DNA from: Hymenobacter sp. PAMC 26628
Lineage (GTDB): Bacteria > Bacteroidota > Bacteroidia > Cytophagales > Hymenobacteraceae
Length of the DNA: 64,000 nucleotides
Direction of reading: 5' to 3'
NCBI RefSeq assembly: GCF_001562275.1
Contig: NZ_CP014304.1
Span: 1,612,001 to 1,676,000, forward strand
Shown here: positions 30,230 through 32,077 of the stretch, in pieces
Layout of the letters: the number at the start of each line of letters is the position of its first letter
Position numbering within the stretch: the first letter of the stretch is position 1
Notes under the pieces: generated by a model
Database searches by the model: none
Told to the model about the DNA's origin: nothing
Seen by the model: only the letters and a program-made list of their open reading frames with translations
Made by a program: the position numbers and the translations under genes

Positions 30230-30237
30230 TACCTTTG
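30230..30237 (+). promoter_or_regulatory. Bacteroidota -7-like promoter element TACCTTTG for the riboswitch transcript
   Basis: This is an exact TAnnTTTG match. Transcription would start near 30243, about 25 nt before the first paired base of the SAM riboswitch aptamer. It lies just after the GAF gene stop (30209). No clear -33 TTTG partner is present. Confidence 0.5.
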
Positions 30238-30268
30238 CCCGGCAACGCTGCGGTGCGCCGCGGGTTGT

Positions 30269-30360
30269 TTTTATAAAGAGGCGCCGAGAGACAGGCTCGT
30301 TGACGCGCCGGCAACCCCCCGCCTTTGGCGGGCCCGGTGCCAAGGCCTGGTTCTATAAAA
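30269..30360 (+). ncRNA. SAM-I (S-box) riboswitch aptamer
   Basis: P1 pairs TTTTATA (30269-30275) with TATAAAA (30354-30360). P2 starts with GGCGC pairing with GCGCC and encloses the kink-turn-type segment GAGAGACAGGCTCGTTGAC. The invariant core CCGGCAACC follows, then P3 (CCCGCC-TTT-GGCGGG), then GGTGCCAAGGCC, matching the S-box consensus GGUGCuAAwuCC. Order and spacing of these blocks match the SAM-I family. It should sense S-adenosylmethionine and switch off the downstream amino-acid permease gene. Confidence 0.88.
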
Positions 30361-30487
30361 CGCGCTGCCGTGCTATACCTACCCCTTTTGTTGCCCCTTT
30401 TGCCAGCCGTAGCCGGCCGCCGCCCCATGCGCGTACCCGTCGGCTGTTGTTGCCGCGCGGGGTGCCGGGCCGCCGGGTAGGGCCCCC

Positions 30488-30528
30488 GGCCGGCCCAGGG
30501 CTGGCCTTGCATTAATCTTTCTTTTTTG
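30488..30528 (+). terminator. Candidate expression-platform hairpin of the SAM leader
   Basis: GGCCGGCCC and GGGCTGGCC can form a GC-rich stem with a small loop (30488-30506), followed after a gap by CTTTCTTTTTTG. It lies 130 nt after the aptamer and about 85 nt before the permease start. The T-run is not adjacent to the stem, and I did not find a clear anti-terminator, so the switching mechanism is open. Confidence 0.4.
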
Positions 30529-30613
30529 TGGGGAGTGGTTTGGATGGGGCCCCGGGGCCCTGGCCGTCCCCTTGTTTACCGCCCGGCCCGCGCTGGGCCC
30601 CGAGTTTTTAGTT

Positions 30614-32077
30614 ATGCTGAAAAAATCACTGGCCCTGTTGCAGCGCGAAGCGGCCGAAACCGGGGGCAATACCCTCAAGCGTACCCTCAACGGCTTCAGC
30701 CTCATTGCCATCGGCATCGGCGTCATCATCGGCGCGGGCCTGTTTTCGCTTACCGGCATCGCGGCGGCCAACAACGCCGGGCCCGCCGTCACGCTCTCCT
30801 TCGTGGTGGCGGCCGTGGGCTGCGCTTTTTCGGCGCTGTGCTACGCCGAGTTTGCCGCGCTGGTGCCCGTGTCGGGCTCGGCCTACACCTATTCCTACGC
30901 CACCATGGGCGAGCTGTTCGCCTGGATTATCGGCTGGGACCTGGTGCTCGAATACTCGGTGGGGGCCGCCACGGTGGCCATCAGCTGGTCGCAGTACCTC
31001 ATCAAGTTCCTGGGCAAGTACGGCCTGCACCTGCCGGCCCAGTTGGTGATGTCGCCCTTCGAGTCGGCCAAGCTGGCCGACGGCTCCAGCGTGACGGGCT
31101 ACGTAAACGTGCCGGCCATGCTGGTGGTGCTGGCCATCACGGCCATCGTCACGCGGGGCACGAAAGGGTCGGCCTGGTTCAACGCCCTGGTGGTGGCCCT
31201 GAAGGTGGCCGTGGTGCTGGTGTTCATCGCCCTAGGCTGGAAGTACATCGACCCTGCCAACTACCAGCCCTACATCCCGGCCAACACCGGCAAGTTCGGC
31301 GAGTTTGGCCTAAGCGGCATTTTGCGCGGGGCGGGGGTCATTTTCTTCGTCTTCATCGGCTTCGACATCGTGGCCACCATGGCCCAGGAAACCAAGAACC
31401 CGCAGCGCAACATGCCCATCGGCATCCTCGGCTCGCTGGCCGTTTGCACGGTGCTGTTCGTGCTCTTCGGCCACGTCCTCACCGGCTTAGCCAACTACTC
31501 GGAGTTCAAAAACAGCGCCGCGCCGGTGGCCATCGCCATCGAAAAAACGCCCTACGCCTGGCTCAGCTCGGCCGTGATCCTGGCCATTCTCATTGGCTAC
31601 ACGTCCGTCATTCTGGTCGATTTGCTGGGGCAGTCGCGGGTGTTTTTCTCGATGTCGCGCGACGGGCTGCTGCCGCCGGTGTTCTCCAAGCTGCACCCCA
31701 CGTTCAACACGCCGTTCCAGTCGAGCCTGCTGCTGGGCTCGTTCATTGCCGTGTTCGCGGGCTTCGTGCCCATCTCCGTGGTGGGCGAAATGACGAGCAT
31801 CGGCACGCTGCTGGCCTTCGTGATGGTGTGCCTGGGCGTGATGATTATGCGCCGCACCAACCCCGACGCGCCCCGCAGCTTCCGCACGCCGTGGGTGCCG
31901 GTGGTACCCATCCTGGGCATCGTGGTGTGCCTGGTGATGATGGCCTCGCTGCCCTGGGAAACCTGGCTGCGCCTGTTCGTGTGGCTGGCCATCGGCCTAG
32001 CCATCTACTTCGGCTACGGCAAGAAAAACAGCAAGCTGCGCCAGGCCCAGGAGCGCGGCGACGCCGATTCGCAGTAG
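30614..32077 (+). CDS. APC-family amino-acid permease under SAM riboswitch control
   Basis: This 487-residue inner-membrane protein has about 12 hydrophobic segments. The first segment carries the APC signature LIAIGIGVIIGAGLFSLTG, and later segments include GFDIVATMAQETKNPQRNMP and LGQSRVFFSMSRDGLLPP, wording of the YfnA/CAT-like cationic amino-acid transporter group. The Met at 30614 (MLKKSLALL) is preferred to an upstream in-frame start at 30572. The S-box leader places it in the methionine/SAM regulon, so uptake of methionine or a precursor is the simplest inference, even though the family itself is broad. It is convergent with the small gene at 32154. Confidence 0.92.
   Translation: MLKKSLALLQREAAETGGNTLKRTLNGFSLIAIGIGVIIGAGLFSLTGIAAANNAGPAVTLSFVVAAVGCAFSALCYAEFAALVPVSGSAYTYSYATMGELFAWIIGWDLVLEYSVGAATVAISWSQYLIKFLGKYGLHLPAQLVMSPFESAKLADGSSVTGYVNVPAMLVVLAITAIVTRGTKGSAWFNALVVALKVAVVLVFIALGWKYIDPANYQPYIPANTGKFGEFGLSGILRGAGVIFFVFIGFDIVATMAQETKNPQRNMPIGILGSLAVCTVLFVLFGHVLTGLANYSEFKNSAAPVAIAIEKTPYAWLSSAVILAILIGYTSVILVDLLGQSRVFFSMSRDGLLPPVFSKLHPTFNTPFQSSLLLGSFIAVFAGFVPISVVGEMTSIGTLLAFVMVCLGVMIMRRTNPDAPRSFRTPWVPVVPILGIVVCLVMMASLPWETWLRLFVWLAIGLAIYFGYGKKNSKLRQAQERGDADSQ

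Follow-up and report, generated by a model that had tools for sequence, protein, structure and literature searches.

The window analysed here, a stretch of 64,000 nucleotides from Hymenobacter sp. PAMC 26628, carries a SAM-I riboswitch in front of an amino-acid permease gene. This arrangement raises two questions, namely by which expression platform the riboswitch acts and what the permease brings into the cell.

The SAM-I aptamer and its link to the permease

SAM-I (S-box) RNAs are among the best-studied riboswitches. When the whole 64-kb window was searched with cmscan against all of Rfam, RF00162 (SAM) was the sole match above the gathering threshold. The match covers positions 30268-30361 of the forward strand and the full length of the model (1-108), with 65.1 bits compared to a cut-off of 44.4 (E 7e-13). 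The first-pass annotation had recognized a SAM-I riboswitch at this site and had proposed an Infernal run with RF00162; the run scores above the family threshold and confirms the assignment. The covariance-model score by itself is decisive for SAM-I identity, while covariation within the genus is uninformative because there is too little variation: P1 and P2 hardly vary within the genus, P1 being fixed there, and double changes are rare. Of the 30 pairs in an automatic alignment, 3 showed changes on both strands, and two of these lie in a poorly aligned hairpin. The RNA shares the common aptamer sequence and structure of RF00162, including sulfur and methionine genes downstream.

The promoter element that had been placed before the aptamer was also recovered. 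The sequence TACCTTTG (30230-30237, forward strand), which we take to be a Bacteroidota-type -7 promoter element (consensus TAnnTTTG), recurs in 26 of the 27 leaders of the genus, where 26-32 nt separate it from the 5' strand of P1 downstream. This extended 5' strand, UUGUUUUUAUA (30265-30275, forward strand), is invariant or nearly so in the 27 leaders. The 3' strand of P1, UAUAAAAC (30354-30361, forward strand), is A-rich, follows the pattern UAUAAAA(A)C(AA) in the 27 leaders and reads UAUAAAAACAA in most relatives.

The tie between riboswitch and permease is well conserved, as had been claimed from the single sequence. Among 37 Hymenobacter genomes, our own included, 35 contain a permease ortholog with at least 81% identity (one a partial gene), and SAM-I is conserved upstream in 33 of these 35, either directly (27) or followed by two or three inserted genes and then the permease (6). 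No SAM-I was found in the flanks of the remaining two orthologs, from H. terricola (G022, L265) and genome G036 (L060/L078), which represent natural tests of the regulation. Since the orthologous permeases of Spirosoma, Larkinella, Pedobacter, Mucilaginibacter, Chitinophaga and Siphonobacter had no SAM-I in the flanks examined, the link looks genus-specific. Five SAM-I sites were found in the own genome; they belong to the permease, metH-metF, metY-metX, cysH-cysD-cysN and a gene with a carboxymuconolactone-decarboxylase (AhpD-like) domain. The last of these (L001:580-1119, reverse strand), an unusual SAM target, is preceded by the best-scoring SAM-I of the genome (C2:3833496-3833589, reverse strand).

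A cysteine-codon leader ORF between aptamer and permease

The first-pass annotation described an unusual expression platform, a GC stem with a detached T-run. Both are literally present (30488-30528, forward strand; stem at about 30488-30506, T-run at about 30518-30527), but the structure is not conserved as a terminator and is unsupported as a platform, a role for which a leader ORF has taken its place. Terminator-like matches were more frequent than expected (4 versus 1.2), with hairpins at 30496-30509, 30554-30570 and 30585-30599, and these hairpins, together with an aptamer that is a normal RF00162 member, would suit an ordinary SAM-I OFF switch that works through an intrinsic terminator or a start-site platform and in which the leader ORF is incidental. 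We consider such a switch improbable, since the hairpins are not conserved, the region after the leader ORF (30440-30640) folds no better than shuffled sequences (z -0.37), and the ORF with its fixed start, its in-frame TGY runs and its gene specificity goes far beyond chance. A scan of 27 orthologs for a hairpin plus T-run found no shared terminator, and with the folding result an intrinsic terminator was rejected as the platform.

The leader ORF is unannotated and encodes MLYLPLLLPLLPAVAGRRPMRVPVGCCCRAGCRAAG followed by a stop (30370-30480, forward strand; 36 codons). Its GTG start codon lies 8 nt behind P1, and it contains the tandem cysteine codons TGT TGT TGC (30445-30453, forward strand) and a fourth one, TGC, at 30463-30465. 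In the 27 genus leaders the ORF comprises 24-39 codons and starts at a fixed short distance of about 8-10 nt, mostly 9-10 nt, after the 3' strand of P1; A makes up 39% of positions -20 to -1 relative to the start. The body of the ORF is unrelated between species, while the tandem Cys codons stand usually at its very end (...CCCC and stop), as in the relatives' peptides MDFLPRLTARPVVPAASLCPYVAAEACCSKQCCC and MERFPNQPVLVVVAALLPVPAGAAMGCCCCC, each ending at a stop codon. The window's own copy is atypical, with CCC nine codons before the stop compared to a Cys run directly before the stop in most orthologs.

For counting, we applied a strict rule that demands a start between -2 and +25 of the aptamer end and at least three Cys among the last eight residues. 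Such an ORF occurred in 23 of 27 permease leaders and, across the order, in 40 of 120 leaders, while dinucleotide shuffles gave expectations of 0.20 and 0.22, respectively; the window's own ORF falls outside the rule because it has one Cys in its last eight residues. None of the 67 SAM-I leaders from the phylum outside the order carried a Cys leader. In an amino-acid-blind test, Cys accounted for 36-52% of the last six residues compared to 5-8.5% of the body. TGY runs that were searched frame-blind shared the frame of the start codon in 62 of 64 leaders across the order, where one third is expected (log10 p about -27 if the leaders were independent, which is not fully so). This p-value, like the others given here, overstates independence, since the leaders are related by descent. 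As judged from these sequence patterns, the leader frame is coding, beyond chance.

Shifted into another frame, the TGTTGTTG repeat gives Leu codons (TTG TTG), and this Leu frame might be the functional one; alternatively, the repeats might act as a motif in RNA or DNA and have nothing to do with translation. We regard both as very improbable: all 27 orthologous leaders keep the Cys frame open, while the +1 frame is broken in 13 and the +2 frame in 17 of them, and the TGY runs keep in frame with the start as described. These frame counts led us to reject the Leu-frame or motif reading of TGTTGTTG.

The Cys-codon leader could also work by classical intrinsic attenuation, in which stalling would toggle antiterminator and terminator hairpins and Rho plays no part. 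This mode was proposed for uORFC-8-2, the cysS attenuator of Rhodobacterales, whose leader ORF likewise has tandem Cys codons but differs in their position (codons 14-15), in its intrinsic terminator, in its location upstream of cysS and in having no SAM aptamer (PMC8632094). In some of our leaders a T-rich stretch does follow a GC hairpin behind the ORF; however, no hairpin plus U-run is common to the leaders even within the genus, and several leaders are without any. The intrinsic terminator/antiterminator that is a feature of Cys-codon attenuators was not found in conserved form after the ORF here, and we regard intrinsic attenuation as a rival of lower probability.

A further possibility is translational reinitiation, which would couple the leader peptide to the permease; the riboswitch would then control the unit as a whole at the level of translation. 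Coupling of riboswitch and uORF is documented in Mycobacterium tuberculosis, where the B12 (PMC11260477) and Mbox (PMC12810186) riboswitches likewise control translation of a short uORF, with Rho termination for Mbox; they differ in their ligands, and in the available portions of these reports the uORF is not described as an amino-acid sensor. Between the leader stop and the permease ATG lie 122-336 nt, a distance that would not allow close stop-start coupling, and we judge reinitiation quite unlikely.

A proposed leader with two inputs

The best explanation appears to be a leader with two inputs, SAM via the aptamer and Cys via the leader ORF, to which we give reasonable though not high confidence. 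In Bacteroidota, translation initiation generally does not rely on Shine-Dalgarno pairing, and an A-rich sequence ahead of the start is favoured. Since the A-rich 3' strand of P1 directly precedes the start of the leader ORF, SAM bound to the aptamer would stabilise P1 and hide the initiation region, and translation of the leader ORF would be blocked. If SAM is low, the leader ORF would be translated, and scarce charged tRNA-Cys would cause stalling on the tandem Cys codons. The stalled ribosome would keep the downstream leader expressing, most likely by holding Rho off the C-rich, G-poor RNA, for which E. coli tnaC offers the comparison. If the leader is untranslated or the ribosome quickly released, termination would follow. 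The permease would be expressed mainly when SAM and cysteine are both low, and a sulfur source would then be imported; its gene probably responds to SAM and cysteine supply alike.

The leader ORF body has a C content of 0.31 compared to 0.19 for G, and C exceeds G in 94% of the 68 leaders with a Cys ORF versus 70% of leaders without one (p 8e-8). This excess of C could instead come from codon or amino-acid bias. We prefer the Rho model because this C-rich, G-poor body, together with the lack of a conserved terminator, recalls the Cys leaders of actinobacteria. For the Cys-run leaders of mycobacteria and other actinobacteria, which have no terminators, Rho-dependent control as in tna was proposed (Seliverstov 2005, PMC1262725). 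These short polycysteine ORFs likewise carry their Cys codons close to the stop and precede sulfur genes, and they too have no terminator that is conserved (PMC1262725). They differ from the leaders described here in having no riboswitch in front and in belonging to a different phylum; in addition, the tested mycobacterial polycysteine ORFs are leaderless (Canestrari 2020 as cited in PMC9031893).

A SAM signal is likewise combined with a tRNA-charging signal in the Xanthomonas SAM-I, which binds uncharged tRNA-fMet too (PMC7270179), and in the clostridial ubiG S-box with a Cys T-box (PMC2940859). In both systems, however, the RNA binds the tRNA directly instead of sensing it via a translated leader (PMC7270179, PMC2940859), and the clostridial S-box acts via an antisense RNA (PMC2940859). 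In the open-licence PMC literature we found neither a Cys-codon leader ORF as SAM-I expression platform nor a prior report of SAM-I joined to a Cys-codon leader. Across the whole order, SAM-I appears to act through a translated leader by which a second amino acid is sensed, and this makes two-signal control of sulfur intake directly testable.

Sulfur acquisition genes and the substrate of the permease

Within the order, the Cys leader is restricted to certain SAM-I genes. It was present in 25 of 34 metY leaders (9 of 34 being without) and in 4 of 7 leaders of cysH-type reductases, the others having internal Cys clusters. It was also found at ATP-grasp (2 of 2), TonB (2 of 2), NhaC (1 of 1), HPP (1 of 1) and sulfite reductase (1 of 1) genes, but in none of the 27 metH and none of the 4 homoserine dehydrogenase SAM-I leaders of the order. 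This gene-specificity contrast has a Fisher p of 3e-12, computed on leaders that share descent. Given this distribution, with metY, cysH and transporters on one side and metH and homoserine dehydrogenase on the other, the leader type separates sulfur acquisition from methionine recycling. SAM-I with a Cys leader would thus mark genes that bring in or fix sulfur, the permease among them, while SAM-I alone would mark genes that recycle or finish methionine, so that labelling leaders as SAM plus Cys or as SAM only separates the two groups of genes. We propose, as a fairly probable generalization, an architecture of the order Cytophagales in which SAM-I gates a polycysteine leader ORF so that genes are expressed if SAM and Cys are low together; genes of sulfur acquisition would have this control, those of methionine synthase would not.

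The permease gene itself (30614-32077, forward strand) encodes an APC-superfamily amino-acid permease (CAT/BcaP-like), as had been assigned: Pfam AA_permease_2 scores 177.8 bits against a gathering cut-off of 27, and AA_permease_C is matched too. The nearest structures are 5oqt and 6f34, which we take to be GkApcT. The nearest NCBIfam model is BcaP (NF053761). The permease belongs to the same protein family as the BcaP/GkApcT-type APC transporters but differs from BcaP in lying below its equivalog cut-off (559.7 compared to 690 bits), and its substrate assignment is a prediction. BcaP transports branched-chain amino acids, methionine and some cysteine (PMC7058034). A paralogous permease of the same genome, 58% identical, is without SAM-I. 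MetQ was not found in the own genome, which removes one alternative methionine importer and leaves others.

From its leader, the first-pass annotation had derived import of methionine or a related compound. Methionine remains one candidate, but the leader points to sulfur supply generally and cyst(e)ine is equally possible. The cysteine codons and the gene distribution, with the same leader type on genes of sulfate assimilation, sulfhydrylase and import and not on methionine synthase, support a sulfur-source importer better than a methionine importer. The permease is thus probably a sulfur-source importer, with methionine, cyst(e)ine or a related compound as candidate substrates, of which the leader would favour none over another. 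In the same way, the Cys leader serves as a substrate clue for transporters, TonB receptors and a monooxygenase cassette of no assigned role.

In genome G009, the permease is convergent to a cysH-cysD-cysN-cysJ-cysI operon with a SAM-I/Cys leader (L092:656-15912), which reads cysH, cysD, cysN, SUMT, cysJ, TonB receptor, cysI and siroheme/TauE. Unlike the diverged bodies elsewhere, the cysH leader peptides have a conserved core of the type A(V/L)QHGCCxM...P..CM (L139, L140, L148, L152, L092; also L024, L137, L143, L147), and this core occurs too in SAM-I leaders of unassigned genes. The peptide may serve to arrest ribosomes, or a leader may have been duplicated.

In other families of the order, SAM-I with a Cys leader was observed at genes for an NhaC-type antiporter, an HPP-family membrane protein and two TonB receptors (L157, L170, L176, L192), all of them candidate sulfur importers. 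A pair of genes for an ATP-grasp protein and an SfnG-like flavin monooxygenase also has a SAM-I/Cys leader (L069:1810-2826 and L069:2883-3881, both on the reverse strand). The monooxygenase matches TIGR04021 with 241.5 bits, below the cut-off, and PDB 3rao with E 3e-120; organosulfur use is the probable, predicted function of the pair. It occupies its own locus or, in six Hymenobacter genomes, lies between riboswitch and permease, and H. armeniacus (L279) has it too, as judged by position.
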